IMG/VR virus record: IMGVR_UViG_3300044451_000166 | Span: 1 to 59,882 of that record | Length of the DNA stretch: 59,882 nucleotides | Strand: one strand, 5' to 3' | DNA from: a virus | Shown here: positions 25,942-33,782 of the stretch, piece after piece | Layout of the letters: the number at the start of each line of letters is the position of its first letter | Numbering within the stretch: the first letter of the stretch is position 1 | Program-made: the position numbers and the translations under genes | Notes under the pieces: model-generated | What the model saw: the letters and a program-made list of their open reading frames with translations, nothing else | Databases searched by the model: none | What the model was told of the DNA's origin: nothing

Positions 25942-27794
25942 CAAAGATTCTCCGGCCATCCGCTGTTTGAAATTGATAAGTTATTAAACAACTCATCTTT
26001 ATCAGCTCTTAAAGTCCAATTTCCTTTTAGTACTTGTCTAGACTTATAACCTGCTTCAAAACGTCTTGCTTGAATACGCATAGTTAGTTCGACTACAAAT
26101 TCTTCATTTTTGTAAGGAACAACTACTTGTCCTTGATGTCGTGGTCTAACAAATGTCCAACCCTCATTATCCGTAACCCATTTGTCCCTTATGAAACGCA
26201 AGTTAGCATGTCGAATTTCTCCATTACTTGTAATTAAAAATGGATCATCTTTAGTTCCCCACCCCTTTAGATACTCAATTTCAGAAGGAAATGGTTGATC
26301 GTAGTCAACTGGAGTAATTGTGCTTCCTGTTGGAGAATGTCGGTTTTTAGTTACTGTACGCGCTGTATCAGGATTATTTTGATCCGCTCCCTTGGCGTAT
26401 GTATGCCAATACACTTTTATAACTGCCTCATAAAAGAACGTAACTTCTCCACCCGCAGAATTTCCATCTCCTTCATATTGTTTTCTAAATGAAGCACCAG
26501 CTTCTGATTCAAAGAAATCCATTTTAAATTCAAAACGTTGCGTTGAATTAGTAAACACAATATCCTGCAAACTGTCTCGATCACCTTGATTAAACCAGCT
26601 TCCCATTGAAAAGCCCGCTTGATCAACTGCGCCCTTAAAAAACGAATCAACACCTTGTTGAGTTTGTGTGAGAACATTTTGGTTCTCTTCGATTGGACCA
26701 ACTGAATCAGCAACACTTGATGCTGGTGTTTGAGACACTGGAATGGTTGCTGTAAGCATTGTTTGTTTTTTATCAAAGCCAATGTACAACGCCTGCATGC
26801 TTACCTCAACGCTTGCCTGAGACGGAATGTAGTTTTTTGTAAACTTGTGAAAGTTGATGAGCGTTGAAGTAACAAAACCTTCAATAATCATCCATTTAGA
26901 AAACATGACTCTAACAGGAACTGGCGTAATAAACGCAGTATTTCCAAGATTTGGATTTAACGATTGTTCTGACCAGTTCCAAGTCGGTGTAGTCTCTGCT
27001 TCTGTCTTTTCTTTGTCCTGATCGTCGGCTGTACTTGGGTCAGGTGCAGGTGGGTTTGCCGCTCGGGCGATTAGTGTTTGTTTAACCATGTTCAACATTT
27101 CTTGATTAAACCCTTGACCAACGACGGCGTCTAAAACCATGATGTCAGCAAGAACCCCAAGACCACAAACCCAACTTGGATCATATTGGTTGTTGATAAA
27201 GTATTCGGGATCGGTGTTTAAGGTGTTAACAATAAATCCCACGTTCACACTTTTTAGCCCATTTCCAGACCTAAACTTTCGTGAAACCAATTCAGCTTCC
27301 CGATTAAACAGTAATTTAAAACTGTATGAGGCCTGCCCTGGGATTGGAACAGCCAATTGTGATGGTTCTTGATTGAAAAAGAATTGTGTTTCGTATGCAT
27401 TTGCATCCACTGACCGCACAATTGTGTCCGGTTGAAATTGAAAATTGCAGCGACGATTAAAGATTGTTGGGGGATTATCCATTTTTGCGTAAAATTCAGT
27501 TAAGCGTCGAATGTATCCACGTTTTGTTCTTATCCGCTGCGGACGCCTTACCTTTGAACCAAGGTCTATAAAAGTGTCTCCCGGATAAATAAACAACGGG
27601 TTATCTTGCTGGTTGTTTGGGGTGGCCAGAGGAGTTACATTAAAATTAAATCCTTGACTTTTAAGTTTCGCTTGTACAGCAGCAGTTTTTAATTGTGCTT
27701 CTCTTGCGTCCGCTGACCCACTTGTTGCGTTTTGAATAAGTTCGAGATTCTTTTTTTTCGCTGCTCTTTCAACCGCATCTGCTTGTTTTTCCAT
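25941..27794 (-). CDS. Baseplate adaptor protein, contractile-injection tube type
   Basis: 617 residues. Residues about 110-340 show the pattern of CIS-tube/Afp7-type proteins: FQFQPDTIVRSVDANAY, SYSFKLLFNRE, VRVMFSKWMIIEGFVTST and IPSQASVEVSMQALYIG. A Pro/Thr linker at about 255-275 and a beta-rich C-terminus with ELTMRIQARRF complete it. In injection systems this protein, together with LysM, joins tube and hub; here the LysM gene follows at once. Size is larger than typical, so extra domains are present. Confidence 0.65.
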   Translation of the reverse strand: MEKQADAVERAAKKKNLELIQNATSGSADAREAQLKTAAVQAKLKSQGFNFNVTPLATPNNQQDNPLFIYPGDTFIDLGSKVRRPQRIRTKRGYIRRLTEFYAKMDNPPTIFNRRCNFQFQPDTIVRSVDANAYETQFFFNQEPSQLAVPIPGQASYSFKLLFNREAELVSRKFRSGNGLKSVNVGFIVNTLNTDPEYFINNQYDPSWVCGLGVLADIMVLDAVVGQGFNQEMLNMVKQTLIARAANPPAPDPSTADDQDKEKTEAETTPTWNWSEQSLNPNLGNTAFITPVPVRVMFSKWMIIEGFVTSTLINFHKFTKNYIPSQASVEVSMQALYIGFDKKQTMLTATIPVSQTPASSVADSVGPIEENQNVLTQTQQGVDSFFKGAVDQAGFSMGSWFNQGDRDSLQDIVFTNSTQRFEFKMDFFESEAGASFRKQYEGDGNSAGGEVTFFYEAVIKVYWHTYAKGADQNNPDTARTVTKNRHSPTGSTITPVDYDQPFPSEIEYLKGWGTKDDPFLITSNGEIRHANLRFIRDKWVTDNEGWTFVRPRHQGQVVVPYKNEEFVVELTMRIQARRFEAGYKSRQVLKGNWTLRADKDELFNNLSISNSGWPENL

Positions 27795-30649
27795 TACGTT
27801 GTCCTCAACAATTCTCGCTTGATTTCTTGCTGCAAGATCCTAGAAATTTCTTGCGCCACTCGCTGAGCATCTTGTGTGTTGTTACCAGTAGATGTAACGT
27901 AGATGTTTGGAGCAATATTAACACTTGTTCCACCCTGGATGACAACGCCATTACCCTGTTTAGCGGGTGTGTTAATCGTTGAGTCTCCACCACCAAACCC
28001 AAGTGGCATAGTAATTGTTTTTTGTTCAGCTGGTGTGTCGACCACTGGGTCTCCACCACCAAACCCAAGCTCTTTAGTAATTGCTTGGGCCTTTGGCATA
28101 ATAGACTCGGTGTTGGCAAGCGGATTTCCATCAATGTTCCATGGTGAGTAGTTTCCACCGCCAAACAAAATTCGAGCTGCTTTAACGTTTGTTTCTGGGT
28201 CATACAGTTCTTCGTTTTTATCTATCTTAAAATAATTACGTCGCGCAGGACCCATTTTGCCCATCATGTTGATTTGGAACAATCCATATGACAAATCGTC
28301 CTTATCATCCGCCTTTACTCCCGGAATCCATCGAGATTCTCTCCATGAAATAGCAAGCATGTTGGTAATGTCTTTTCCTTTAAAACCACGTTTGTGCAAA
28401 AGCCTGGCAAGGTCATAGGGATCCATCGGCTGTTTAGACCCGGCAAGGTTTGAATAGTTAGTTTCCTCAGTTTTGCTTGAAGAGTTAGTTGCCCCAGTTC
28501 GGTTAGCAACTCCACGAACGGTTGCCGAGCCTCCACCACCATCCATTTTTGCCGCAGTTGCGGCAAACGGTTCCCCAACAATTGACGAAATACTCACTTG
28601 ACTAAAGGTTTCATAGCTGGAACCAAGGGATCCAGAATTCCCAATTACTTTGTCGCCAACAACGGCCCCGCTATGCGGCTTACCCCTAGCGTCAACTTCT
28701 ACGTTTGCAGAATCACGCCTTGTTCCAGCCGGTTGCCCCCAAGGCGAGCCCCGTTTTTCGTACTCGAAACGAGAGTCAGGGAGCTCTGCTGGTTGTACGT
28801 GCCATGGCTCATTATTAACATTAGCAAATGTCTTAAGACCAAACCTTTCTGCATTTTTGACCACCCAATCAAGATCGCCCACAAGGTCCGCCGCCAAACC
28901 AATTTCGTGCATAGAACGACCTGGGGGAGCGGCGGGTGGTCCTGAATGGTGTTTCCAACCTTTTCCATCCCAAGTTAAGTCGGCTTTTTCATTACCTCGC
29001 ACAGGTCGATAACGGTCATGAAACAGCTTTGTCTGTTCAGCTTCAGATCGATGACCAGTACCAAGGCCTACGTTGGGGTTAGCGGCGAACAGGCGCAACA
29101 AACGATCACGGAATTGAGAATTAAGTTTTGCAAAATGCCCAACGTTAGAAAGTTCACCCAGCGTTATTCGCTTAATTGGTTTGTTGTAGCCAATGGGAAT
29201 TTTTGTCGTCTGTGGGCTTCCGGTTTTAGCGGTAGGCACAGGGTCACCAGACATCAGTGTTGCGCCTGTTGCTATTGCCCCAGCTGAAATTGCTAGAGAC
29301 GCTCCTCCTGTAAAGGGTGTAAGGCCAGCACCAACCACAGCCCCACCAACCATTAAAGCACCACCAAGAATCTTGCGTCCAATGCTTCCTTTAGTAGATA
29401 CGCCAGTGCCAACAATTCCAGAAAGTTTGTCTTCAAAAGCTTCAAGTGCCCTGTTTACGCTCTGTATATTTTTTTCCATATCAGCAAAGTTGTCAGCTTG
29501 ACGTTTGTAAAATTGTTCGTCTCGATTCTCTTTTACACGAATGGTTTCCTCAGCTTGAGTAGCAAAGTTTTGCTCAATCCCCATTACCGAACGGTGTTTT
29601 GCGTCTGAAGGGTCGTACATTGTTTTGCTACCAGTTTTTTTCTGATAAGACTGGTTGGCTTCGGCATAATCAAGAACTAGGTCAATCATGTCTGGCGGAA
29701 CGCCGGATGCTTCAAGCATTGCTCTGGTATTTGACCCTTGTTGGCGGGCCCCAGCCAACCGATCAGCATTTGTAAGACCGGTTCTCTGAACAATTTGTTT
29801 AATAACGTTGTCCATTGAGTTTTGCTGACCACCAAAGCCGTACAAACCCGTGCCAAGCATCATGGTCATTCGGTTGTTAACAGCAGCACTTCCCAATGTT
29901 CCAGCCATCTGAGCCATTTGCTCGGTGCTGTATGAGTAGCCAGACAGAGCACGAAGACCAGCAATACCAGCATGGTTTAGTTGGGCATTAATACCTGTAG
30001 ATGCTTGCAAAGAAAGCAACGTATTTATGCCGTTGTAACCAAGTCGAGAACCGCGCATTGGGTCGCGCATATCCTCGATGTATTGCATGTTTGAGATGCC
30101 CTTGTTTTGCTGATAGTAAACCGCAAGCTTGTCAACCGACAAAGAACGCATGTAGTTGTTATCAATGCGGGAATCAAGGGCTTGAATTCCAAGATTTAAT
30201 GCTTGGAACGCAAACATAGCAGCACTAGCTCCACCACCACCACCACCAGGGGCAGCACCACCAGGGGCAGCACCACCAGGAGCACGCGTGTTACCAACAA
30301 ACACTTGTTGGACGTTGGTCACCGTCCCGCTTTGGTTTACCCCAGATCCAGGGGGGCCCATTGGTAGCGAAATACCAGCACCAGTGGGGTTCTGTGCCCC
30401 AGCACCACCACTCTGGGTTCTCTGAATTCCCTGCATCAGTTGCAGGGTCTTATTCAATTTTGTATTGATGTTGGGCAGCGTTTTATTTAAATACTCAAAA
30501 TCTTTTCTAATCTGATTAATTGACGCAGCAACTTTTTCAATAGCTTTAGTGTCAACATTAAACCTGGCGCGCAGATCACCCATCGCTCTGCCGCGACCAC
30601 CACCCTGCGAGGGATTTCCCGCAACGCTCGGTTCGTTAGTTGTTACCAT
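27794..30649 (-). CDS. Tape measure protein with M15 peptidase and lytic transglycosylase domains
   Basis: 951 residues. N-terminus basic with coiled coil (35-75), Pro/Gly repeats (APGGAAPGG, two 15-bp DNA units), helical body, hydrophobic stretch 425-465 (GGALMVGGAVVGAGL). Residues 500-620 are a VanY-like M15 metallopeptidase: TGHRSEAEQ, SMHEIGLAADLV (His581, Asp588) and PWHVQP (His617). Residues 745-840 are a lysozyme-like transglycosylase: ISWRESRW (Glu771), SYGLFQINMMG. It sets tail length and probably locally opens peptidoglycan at injection. It starts by TAATG overlap with the frameshift extension. Confidence 0.9.
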   Translation of the reverse strand: MVTTNEPSVAGNPSQGGGRGRAMGDLRARFNVDTKAIEKVAASINQIRKDFEYLNKTLPNINTKLNKTLQLMQGIQRTQSGGAGAQNPTGAGISLPMGPPGSGVNQSGTVTNVQQVFVGNTRAPGGAAPGGAAPGGGGGGASAAMFAFQALNLGIQALDSRIDNNYMRSLSVDKLAVYYQQNKGISNMQYIEDMRDPMRGSRLGYNGINTLLSLQASTGINAQLNHAGIAGLRALSGYSYSTEQMAQMAGTLGSAAVNNRMTMMLGTGLYGFGGQQNSMDNVIKQIVQRTGLTNADRLAGARQQGSNTRAMLEASGVPPDMIDLVLDYAEANQSYQKKTGSKTMYDPSDAKHRSVMGIEQNFATQAEETIRVKENRDEQFYKRQADNFADMEKNIQSVNRALEAFEDKLSGIVGTGVSTKGSIGRKILGGALMVGGAVVGAGLTPFTGGASLAISAGAIATGATLMSGDPVPTAKTGSPQTTKIPIGYNKPIKRITLGELSNVGHFAKLNSQFRDRLLRLFAANPNVGLGTGHRSEAEQTKLFHDRYRPVRGNEKADLTWDGKGWKHHSGPPAAPPGRSMHEIGLAADLVGDLDWVVKNAERFGLKTFANVNNEPWHVQPAELPDSRFEYEKRGSPWGQPAGTRRDSANVEVDARGKPHSGAVVGDKVIGNSGSLGSSYETFSQVSISSIVGEPFAATAAKMDGGGGSATVRGVANRTGATNSSSKTEETNYSNLAGSKQPMDPYDLARLLHKRGFKGKDITNMLAISWRESRWIPGVKADDKDDLSYGLFQINMMGKMGPARRNYFKIDKNEELYDPETNVKAARILFGGGNYSPWNIDGNPLANTESIMPKAQAITKELGFGGGDPVVDTPAEQKTITMPLGFGGGDSTINTPAKQGNGVVIQGGTSVNIAPNIYVTSTGNNTQDAQRVAQEISRILQQEIKRELLRTT

Positions 30650-30798
30650 TACTCCTGCCTATGCCAGCGACTCATGGCCGCCCAATAAATACGTTGACGC
30701 ACGGTCATCGTTTTAATATCTTTTAGCGAAAAGCCTTTGTAGACAGAAGCAATTGAATCGTAATCCCAATATGTACCTACTAGATTAGCTGAATAAAA
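30649..30798 (-). CDS. Frameshift extension of the tail assembly chaperone
   Basis: An open frame of 49 codons (FYSANLVGTYWDYDSIASVY ... WHRQE) with no proper start codon before codon 31, beginning inside the 3' end of the gp26-like gene in the +1 frame. Near the junction the zero frame reads TCC CTT TTA TTC AGC TAA; CTTT is the same shift site type as in RF2, and slipping of the CTT codon to TTT would yield the fused protein. Its stop overlaps the tape measure ATG (TAATG). Helical, with a composition like other chaperone C-terminal extensions. Confidence 0.6.
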   Translation of the reverse strand, partial: FYSANLVGTYWDYDSIASVYKGFSLKDIKTMTVRQRIYWAAMSRWHRQE

Positions 30799-31579
30799 GG
30801 GAGGCCCAATTCAACATGATTGGAAAGGGCTTTTCACAATGGGCGCAGTGGGCTTCCACCTCCTTGATTTCTGGCCCCGGTTGAGCTTCTACTAATTTAG
30901 AAATAATCAAAGCGCGGTCTTTCATACCAAGGCTCTTTGCCCACTTATTCACATCCTTAGGCTTTTTACCTTCTTCCCATTCCGCACATCGAGCAATCAA
31001 AATGGTGTTTTGTTCAGGAATGTTGTTTGCCTTTTTACTAACTACTTGACTATCCGCACCATTGACCAAACGAAAACGCTGGGTGGTTCCGTTACGCAAT
31101 TTAATTTCAATGGGCTCCTGGGGATTTCCCTTAGGTTTTTTAATTGGAAACTCCGACATTTCAATAAGAACGTCGTTTGACTTTCCACACTGAGGACAAT
31201 TGATTTGGTACTCACGGTTTTCGCCATAGGTTGCACGAACCGTGGTCAAAAACAAAGTGTCACGATCACCAATGATCAGAGCGTCAATAACTTCCGGATG
31301 TTTTTCAATTTGGATGTTTCCAATACAATAAACGCTTCTCTTTAAAAGAGCCGCCATGTACTGCGCATACAACAAATCACCCTTGGCATCCAACGCCGCA
31401 AGGGCCTCCTCGTCTTCGCCAGTCAATTCCCTGACAGTTGCGGTAGTTTCCCACTCATTAGTTTCAGTATTTAGTACACCACGAAACAACTCAACGGTTG
31501 TATTTGGTGTTAATTCAATTTTGGGGACTGGATCTGCAATAGCAGCCTGAACCGCAAGGGCTTCTGATTGTGTTGCCAT
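30785..31579 (-). CDS. gp26-like baseplate/tail assembly chaperone
   Basis: 264 residues in the unshifted form. N-terminus VQAAIADPVPKIELTPNTTV, helical centre (YAQYMAALLKRSVYCIGNI), and two CxxC pairs: NCPQCGKSND and HCAHCEKPF. The layout with a central zinc pair resembles the T4 gp26-type baseplate hub chaperone family. It occupies the position before the tape measure where tail chaperones with frameshifted products are found. AGGAG precedes the ATG. Family call from memory. Confidence 0.7.
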   Translation of the reverse strand: MATQSEALAVQAAIADPVPKIELTPNTTVELFRGVLNTETNEWETTATVRELTGEDEEALAALDAKGDLLYAQYMAALLKRSVYCIGNIQIEKHPEVIDALIIGDRDTLFLTTVRATYGENREYQINCPQCGKSNDVLIEMSEFPIKKPKGNPQEPIEIKLRNGTTQRFRLVNGADSQVVSKKANNIPEQNTILIARCAEWEEGKKPKDVNKWAKSLGMKDRALIISKLVEAQPGPEIKEVEAHCAHCEKPFPIMLNWASLLFS

Positions 31580-31599: not shown

Positions 31600-32226
31600 T
31601 CAGTTTGCTTCTGCCAGACTATTAATTTCCCCTGCGTTCCACGCCACGAAAAAACCTTCGTGGTGAATGTTTAACTGTTGAATCATAATGCCGTTGTCAC
31701 CAGCATTCAAGTCGCTCAAACCGTAAGCACCGGGCCAGCAGTTAAACAGTTTGAATGCCAATTTGATGTTACCAGGCTTGAGATCAGCTGAAGGATCACT
31801 GCTATCCCAAGCATAACGAGCATCCCCAGCGGTGTAGGGGTGGTCAAAGACTTTAACCAGAACGTTGCAACGGTAATTGGTTGAATCACCTTGGGCGCCA
31901 CCAGGAAAACCACCAGTGCCACCGTTGATCCACGAATGAATGAACTTTTGCCACTTCCACAACTGGTCCTGAGTAGCAAACGCTCCACGAGCAAACGAAA
32001 CTGCTGGGAAGTCTGACTGACCAACCATCTTGTGCGGATGAGTGTTCATACCACCCTCACGATAGGCAATTAGCTCGTTTTGAACTGACAGACCGCCCAT
32101 CTGGGCAAAACCAAGATCGCCAATGCCAGTCAGCAAGTTTCCAAGAACGCCGGTACCGTCAATGGCTTCAAAACGAATCGTAAACTTAAAGTTACGAAGC
32201 GGGTCTGTACGTTGTACTTTAGGCAT
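31600..32226 (-). CDS. Tail tube protein (gp19-like)
   Basis: 208 residues from ATG 32226, with AGGAG five bases upstream (a longer in-frame start lies inside the sheath gene). DPLRNFKFTIRFEAIDGTGV, then FAQMGGLSVQNELIAYREGG and PGNIKLAFKLFNCWPGAYGL. The N-x-F-x-V/F-x-beta pattern, 'GLS...YREGG' and the C-terminal Ala/Gly-rich end mark T4 gp19/Afp-type tube proteins. It stacks as hexamers inside the sheath. It follows the sheath gene as usual. Confidence 0.9.
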   Translation of the reverse strand: MPKVQRTDPLRNFKFTIRFEAIDGTGVLGNLLTGIGDLGFAQMGGLSVQNELIAYREGGMNTHPHKMVGQSDFPAVSFARGAFATQDQLWKWQKFIHSWINGGTGGFPGGAQGDSTNYRCNVLVKVFDHPYTAGDARYAWDSSDPSADLKPGNIKLAFKLFNCWPGAYGLSDLNAGDNGIMIQQLNIHHEGFFVAWNAGEINSLAEAN

Positions 32227-32234
32227 GATATCTC

Positions 32235-33782
32235 CTAGATATTGGTAGTGGCCGTTGATCCACCAGCCCATTGGCTGACGGTAATGACAATGAATTCAGC
32301 AGGATTTTGCAATGCAACACCCACTTCAATATTAACTTGACCGTCTTCTACCGTGGTTGGCGTGTTGTTTGTCGAGTTACAGACGACGTAGAAAGCTTCT
32401 GACGTAGTGTTGCCCTTAAGACCACCGGTTCCCCAGAAAGCCGTAAGAAGTGCTGACACACGGATGGTCAGACCCTCCCACAGACGCACATCGTTCGGCT
32501 CAAAAAGTGCATACGCGGTTGAGTCTTTCAACGTTTGCTTAAGGAAGTTTAACGAACGTCGAACCGTAATAAATTTGTCCGCAGTGTTGCGAGCCAAGGT
32601 TCGAGCACCATTGATGACGACACCAACGCCGGGGACAATCGTGAACAAGTTGAGTTGCTGGTTCTTGTACAAAGATCCCTGCTCAGTCTCAGTCAGCGTT
32701 GCCACCAAACCATAAACATTTCGGATGTCAAGACTGTAGCCAGCTGGTGCTTTTGACACACCACGTGCAATTTCGGAACGAACAAAAGCACCAGCCACAG
32801 CCCCACCAGGAAAAGTAGTGCGAATGGAAGCAGCACCAGTCTTAGTTGGATCAAACATCTTTAATGCCGGACCATAAACCGCACCGTAGCTTGACTGGGC
32901 GTATGTTGAAACAACAGACTCCAATGCCGATTTACTAGTGGCGGTCTTTGATGTGTCAATAATTAAGAATGAGTTACCCCGCTCTTGCATTTTTGCCAAA
33001 CCATCATTGACGATGGTTGACGAGGTTTGACCAACCAGATTAAACAAAAGGGTTTGGGTAACGACATCGTAACTATCAAGAGCGGAGGCCCATTCTGTTG
33101 AATCCACAGCGCCGCTGCCCTCCGACCCGTTGGCAAAGTTTCCAGTAGTCACATAGTCGTTAGCACCAAGTCCGGCAATGGTAAGAGCTGCGCTTGAGCT
33201 AACGGTTGCCACGCTGGCAGTCTTAATGTACGACGAGTACAGATCAAGGACAGAGCCAAGGTAACGGGAATTAGATGGGTCAATTGACAACCCAGACCAA
33301 TTTTCAACTTCGGTCCCATCAAGTTTTACTGTAACAGCAAACAAAGAGTTGTTAGTAAATTTAGGAGTGGTTGTTGGGGTTTGAAGAGTTGTTTCGTCAA
33401 AAGTATAATCAACCGTCAAACTGTTGCCCCAACCTCCGGGAGATTTTGAAACCAATGTCCAAAGATTTGCCGCAGCGCCAACTTCTGGAGTTCCCTGCAA
33501 AGTAGAGGTTGCGGTAACTGCAGTCGAGTCAGCAACGCGGGTCACGTACGCGGTTTGACCACCATTTGCAAAATAGTGGTAAACAGCATAGCCAAGATCG
33601 TAGTCGTTGGTTAATTCACCAAATAATTGACGATACTGATTCCACGACGTAACAGCAGTTGGGGTAACTGGTCCACGCTCAGCCGTACCCAAAAATGCGG
33701 CGGCGGTTACACCACTGTTTGCGTTAATGTTGGTAATAAACGCCGATTCTTTGACGTATACTCCTGGACGCTCGTATGCCAT
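32235..33782 (-). CDS. Tail sheath protein
   Basis: 515 residues. YERPGVYVKESAFITNI at the start, AAFLGTAERGPVTPTAVTSW next, LTNDYDLGYAVYHYFANGG, and C-terminal ARNTADKFITVRRSLNFLKQ and WGTGGLKGNTTSEAFYVVCN. These are the standard sheath family blocks. It polymerises around the tube and contracts at infection. AGGAG lies before the ATG. Confidence 0.96.
   Translation of the reverse strand: MAYERPGVYVKESAFITNINANSGVTAAAFLGTAERGPVTPTAVTSWNQYRQLFGELTNDYDLGYAVYHYFANGGQTAYVTRVADSTAVTATSTLQGTPEVGAAANLWTLVSKSPGGWGNSLTVDYTFDETTLQTPTTTPKFTNNSLFAVTVKLDGTEVENWSGLSIDPSNSRYLGSVLDLYSSYIKTASVATVSSSAALTIAGLGANDYVTTGNFANGSEGSGAVDSTEWASALDSYDVVTQTLLFNLVGQTSSTIVNDGLAKMQERGNSFLIIDTSKTATSKSALESVVSTYAQSSYGAVYGPALKMFDPTKTGAASIRTTFPGGAVAGAFVRSEIARGVSKAPAGYSLDIRNVYGLVATLTETEQGSLYKNQQLNLFTIVPGVGVVINGARTLARNTADKFITVRRSLNFLKQTLKDSTAYALFEPNDVRLWEGLTIRVSALLTAFWGTGGLKGNTTSEAFYVVCNSTNNTPTTVEDGQVNIEVGVALQNPAEFIVITVSQWAGGSTATTNI

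Follow-up and report, generated by a model that had tools for sequence, protein, structure and literature searches.

The window analysed here, the 59,882 bases of virus record IMGVR_UViG_3300044451_000166 from a lake-water phage, carries on its minus strand a gene for a tail assembly chaperone of the T4 gp26 family. Comparison with its relatives makes it very probable that this T4-type chaperone gene gives two products from one mRNA by way of a +1 ribosomal frameshift. A preliminary description of the DNA had proposed a +1 shift that extends the tail chaperone upstream of a presumed tape measure gene, and this is strongly supported, since both frames and the slip site are conserved. Frameshifted tail chaperones are textbook knowledge; the +1 shift in the T4-type chaperone family appears to be new, as the literature covered, which did not include a 2022 paper on T4-like chaperones, yielded no account of a +1 shift for the gp26/gp51 family.

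In the mechanism that we propose, most ribosomes would halt at the zero-frame TAA and release a short chaperone of 264 amino acids, and a fraction would shift forward by one base as peptidyl-tRNA-Leu on CUU re-pairs with UUU (CUU_U). The shifted ribosomes would read UAU next and continue to a form of 309 amino acids with a 48-residue C-terminal domain. Both the slip and the fused product are inferred from comparative sequence; in the related Streptomyces phage BRock, the predicted peptide across the +1 junction is NVGILFANSNYK. If the ratio and roles known for lambda gpG/gpGT apply, the chaperone coat on the tape measure would consist mostly of short copies with a few long ones, tube subunits would be recruited by the long form, and neither form would stay in the virion.

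Conservation of the +1 extension

The 3' end of the zero frame reads TGG GCC TCC CTT TTA TTC AGC TAA, with the protein ending in ...NWASLLFS. The putative slip codon is the CTT; the preliminary description had placed CTT T just before the TAA, but TTA TTC AGC intervene. The +1 frame is open from after a TGA (30813-30811), past the zero-frame stop, to a TAA (30651-30649), and provides 48 sense codons beyond the putative slip site (30795-30652), while the -1 frame is closed within 5 nucleotides. Within the window's +1 frame there is no usable ATG, GTG or TTG for the extension, as had been claimed: the first start is an ATG approximately 33 codons in, which would leave only some 15 residues. A single open frame of about 50 codons is expected by chance in about 10% of frames; the open frame in the window is, by itself, weak evidence, and it is the relatives that decide.

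We collected relatives from four scans of viral contigs, one scan of genome contigs and a phage collection. Together they gave 295 sequences with the gene, the window included, of which 292 were untruncated; many loci were one contig fetched twice, and dereplication at 95% nucleotide identity left 126 sequences, 62 in a close (near) group and 64 in a distant group. The relatives had been named as the place to look for stop codons in the extension, and none were found: it is open in all 292 untruncated loci and in 126 of 126 dereplicated sequences, over at least 127 nucleotides beyond the zero-frame stop. The -1 frame is shut within 80 nucleotides in the untruncated loci, and within 5 nucleotides in 203 of them. 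The zero-frame stop itself may be TAA, TGA or TAG. Beyond it, diversity at the first, second and third positions of the +1 codons is 0.25, 0.20 and 0.50 in the close group and 0.45, 0.32 and 0.60 in the distant group; the third positions are thus the most variable, as in coding sequence, in keeping with the earlier impression that the extension is protein-coding.

The same extension occurs in the Streptomyces phages BRock, LuckySocke, pSt2308 and GiJojo, in which gp26 is about 30% identical and the extension either appears in the annotation as a hypothetical gene of its own or is missing from it. It is also present in Bacillus phage SP-15 (GAA TTT TTT CAC at the junction), Listeria phage LIS04 (TTT TTT AGT), Streptococcus phage vB_SagM-GXN1 (TTC TTT CGT), Flavobacterium phage immuto (AGC TTT CTT), Microcystis phage Mel-JY01 (AAC TTT TTT) and one of two huge phages, LR756508 (AAC TTT CTA). 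Five bacterial contigs (L140-L144: Saccharothrix, a Bacillota metagenome-assembled genome, Streptomyces, Nonomuraea and Actinomadura) carry the gene together with the +1 extension and TTT_C; these copies may belong to a prophage or a contractile injection system.

Translation of the extension as a separate small gene, by re-initiation or from a start of its own after the gp26 stop, is highly unlikely. Such an arrangement has precedents in the huge phage LR756511, whose extension begins at TAATGGATG in the -1 frame, and in KVP40, where a separate 'gp51-like' open reading frame (ORF) is annotated; moreover, 28 of the 62 near and 13 of the 64 distant sequences do hold an ATG, GTG or TTG early enough in the +1 frame. 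No start that would give 90% of the extension exists, however, in the other 34 near and 51 distant sequences, the window among them, and independent initiation leaves unexplained why a codon inside the gp26-like gene, CTT or TTT, is invariant.

Probable position of the slip site

This invariant codon is what locates the proposed +1 shift. Counting back from the stop, the fourth codon is CTT throughout the close group (62/62, entropy 0), compared with 4-6 codons each and 1.94-2.41 bits at six other conserved leucine columns outside the overlap. The following codon is TTA in 48 and CTA in 14, a restriction that may be imposed by the overlapping tyrosine codon TAT of the +1 frame rather than by slow decoding. 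In a gap-free alignment of the +1 products, every sequence of the distant group (64/64) has TTT as the homologous codon. The next base is C except in two sequences, in which the stop comes directly after TTT (for example, TTT TGA), and in 54 of the 64 the next codon is CGN. The zero-frame stop lies 0, 1, 2 or 3 sense codons beyond the slip codon in this group.

Since the nearest +1 stop ends 8 nucleotides 5' of TTT in 27 of the distant sequences and the zero-frame stop directly follows TTT in others, the shift is confined to about three codons. Among these, TTT is the sole codon able to re-pair at +1 (UUU to UUC or UUU), which places the slip there; in the close group, the slip is placed at CTT_Y because CTT_Y alone can re-pair (CUU to UUU or UUC). 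A -2 shift was considered and rejected: CTT would meet CCC or CAC, and TTT would meet TGT, neither of which allows re-pairing.

Several observations weigh against the proposed frameshift. The fixed YTT could also reflect phenylalanine coding in the +1 frame, with the shift one codon upstream; the codons found just upstream of YTT (TCA, GCA, TTG) permit no re-pairing. No conserved RNA structure that might act as a stimulator emerged from RNAalifold on 13 relatives, which gave weak pairs with 0-2 compensatory changes. TTA, the codon that would occupy the aminoacyl (A) site, is not very rare in the phage, at 11 per 1000 codons. Lastly, the gp26-like gene has another in-frame CTT TTA further 5' (31348, minus strand), where a +1 shift would hit a stop immediately; either the tetranucleotide needs context or it leaks there.

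Upstream of the slip codon, by 58-63 nucleotides, the close group has an invariant GAG GTG (62/62) within aAGGAGGTG. GAG makes up 33% of glutamate codons and GTG 12% of valine codons in near-group genes, yet the pair does not vary. In the near group, no start codon stands at a usable distance behind GAGGTG.

A +1 shift at the stop codon itself, with the last sense codon in the peptidyl (P) site as in release factor 2 (RF2) or antizyme, would fit the fixed place of the last codon and stop in the near group (RGN, then the stop) and the two distant junctions in which TTT adjoins the stop. Very little probability attaches to it, given that the last codons vary and do not re-pair at +1 (GGC, AGC, GGT, CTC, CAA, GAA, TTC) and that the distance from the fixed YTT to the stop varies from 0 to 3 codons. 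Transcriptional slippage, suggested by a run of four Ts at the site in many members, or an assembly indel that restores a single frame, is extremely improbable: in 14 of the 62 near sequences the site is CTTCTA, where no run exceeds three, and identical or near-identical junctions recur in independent contigs (L002, L003, L004, L005, L008 and others), which excludes the indel that the preliminary description had asked to have checked.

Relation to T4 gp26 and gp51, and gene order

The zero-frame protein belongs to the T4 gp26 family, matching PF12322 (T4_baseplate) with 52.0 bits against a curated cut-off of 24.5 and phrog_150 with E = 6.5e-16. By profile comparison, T4-type gp51 is a relative of gp26 (E = 7e-20) with about 50 additional residues. 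For the window's family, the profile of the fused product aligned nearly end to end with gp51 (E = 1e-7, score 58.1); the score fell to 50.1 with the extension removed and did not exceed 50.9 in 40 trials with the extension columns shuffled. On its own, the extension matched gp51 weakly (E = 0.06-0.08). Single comparisons gave E = 7e-4 against a profile of gp51 C-termini with KVP40 and Bellamy, and E = 3.5e-5 against the set of far +1 relatives; against PHROGs, the window's extension alone had no match and those of relatives had weak ones. At the level of sequence profiles, the +1 extension is colinear with the T4 gp51 C-terminus. In eight Straboviridae with a separate gp51, gp26 carries no +1 extension. 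From this and the gp51 profile alignment, the single gene of the window corresponds to T4 genes 26 and 51 together. The extension matches the part that sets gp51 apart from gp26, and gp51 would be explained as the long form of the chaperone. The window differs from T4 itself in having one gene rather than separate genes for the short and long forms, the latter being a trait of T4 and not of the family.

An AlphaFold2 model of the zero-frame protein (predicted local distance difference test, 87; predicted template modelling score, 0.81) had T4-like baseplate hub assembly proteins as its best viral matches in Foldseek. The nearest solved structures were the tail chaperone YqbN (3KLU, Z 7.3) and, at Z 6.9, that of HK97 (2OB9, a tail assembly chaperone), followed by a next match at 4.3. 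Two tail chaperones out of two suggest a specific likeness of the modelled fold, although Z values below 8 are no proof.

The chaperone gene sits between the genes for the tail tube and the presumed tape measure (Table 1), and the order sheath, tube, chaperone, tape measure is maintained in relatives. The 951-residue gene is presumed to encode the tape measure from its position, its size and the annotation of the next gene downstream, in the same place, as tape measure in SP-15, LIS04 and immuto. In BRock, the corresponding gene carries the annotation endolysin. The TAATG overlap with this gene, noted in the preliminary description, holds in the window but is not a general trait, since many relatives have a gap.

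Table 1. Features of the chaperone locus and its neighbours in the window
Feature	Coordinates	Strand	Evidence
gp26-like tail assembly chaperone, zero-frame product (TAC-N), 264 amino acids	30785..31579	-	PF12322 T4_baseplate, phrog_150
Putative +1 slip tetranucleotide CTT_T, peptidyl-tRNA-Leu CUU to UUU	30796..30799	-	CTT in 62/62 near relatives
Zero-frame A-site codon TTA	30794..30796	-	TTA or CTA in every near relative
Zero-frame stop TAA, 3 sense codons past slip codon	30785..30787	-	
+1-frame extension (TAC-C), 48 amino acids, YSANLVGTYWDYDSIASVYKGFSLKDIKTMTVRQRIYWAAMSRWHRQE; predicted fused product 309 amino acids	30652..30795	-	
Extension stop TAA, overlapping next ATG as TAATG	30649..30651	-	
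Presumed tape measure, 951 amino acids, VanY-like and SLT lysozyme-like domains	27794..30649	-	Position, size, Pfam SLT_3 E 1e-8
Tail tube protein (T4 gp19 family)	31600..32271	-	PF06841 E 3.9e-19
Tail sheath	32235..33782	-	phrog_23 E 4e-47
GAG GTG, Shine-Dalgarno-like	30857..30862	-	62/62 invariant in near group

Comparison with known systems

The review literature describes the frameshift in tail chaperones as conserved across the long-tailed phages, 'except T4' (PMC5009743). As in lambda (gpG/gpGT) and P2 (gpE/E+E'), the arrangement in the window is one gene 5' of the tape measure with a short form and a frameshifted C-terminal extension; unlike those chaperones, which belong to a different sequence family and use a -1 shift at tandem slippery sites, this one belongs to the T4 gp26 family and would use +1. 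T4 gp26 and gp51 are of the same family (PF12322/phrog_150), but T4 has two separate genes and its gp26 lacks the +1 extension. The T4-family chaperone of the window would thus keep both forms in one gene through a +1 shift.

Other members of the family share the layout and differ in the route. KVP40 (L322), Synechococcus phage Bellamy (L321) and Agrobacterium phage Atu_ph07 (L320) have, as here, a short ORF behind a gp26-like gene; in their case it is in the -1 frame right after T_TTT_TTC, a canonical -1 site that stands just ahead of the gp26 stop. This ORF is annotated as a separate gene in all three and is gp51-like in KVP40 and Bellamy; the KVP40 record itself notes a likeness to the T4 gp51 C-terminus. 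In LR756511 (L317:3200-3380), the gp51-C-like extension is apparently reached by a start-stop overlap and not by a shift. It seems likely that the T4-type family reaches the same C-terminal domain by several routes at one homologous junction, and that UUU_C is a general +1 signal of bacteriophages. The +1 route (UUU_C or CUU_Y) would be taken by phages of Actinobacteria, Firmicutes and Bacteroidota, a Microcystis phage and one huge phage, the -1 route at U_UUU_UUC by KVP40, the cyanophage and Atu_ph07, the start-stop overlap by the other huge phage, and the second gene by T4 (26/51). A single junction would then offer a series of shift directions that can be tested and, if this reading is true, UUU_C would not be a rarity of eukaryotic and archaeal viruses.

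Influenza PA-X uses a shift at UCC_UUU_CGU, and the authors of that work predicted that UUU_C sites form a class (PMC3498833). In addition, +1 shifts have been predicted in the tail chaperones of HSTV-2 and, at TTT-CGC, of the HF1 group of haloviruses (PMC7230728, PMC5009743); HSTV-2 has TCC TTT CGC in frame. In the haloviruses (HSTV-2, HF1/HF2), the predicted +1 chaperone likewise lies between tube and tape measure, but the hosts are archaeal, and a comparison of the HSTV-2 chaperone with the gp26 profile gave no match in sequence. Most of our distant relatives fall in the UUU_C class and, with UUU in the P site and an arginine codon CGN in the A site, resemble PA-X, which is from a eukaryotic virus; the window, with CTT_T, falls outside the class. 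Among forward shifts in phages, the SEA-PHAGES training motifs of PRFect hold 350 cases (PMC10274946).

The window shares its slip tetranucleotide CUU_U (30799-30796) with bacterial prfB, which encodes RF2, and the preliminary description had likened the shift to the RF2 type. The tetranucleotide does match, but the context differs and the shift would not take place at the stop codon: the A site holds TTA, the stop comes 3 sense codons later, and TGG GYC KCM stands where RF2 has a Shine-Dalgarno sequence 3 nucleotides 5' of the slip codon. The autoregulation that the shift serves in RF2 would make no sense for a chaperone gene.

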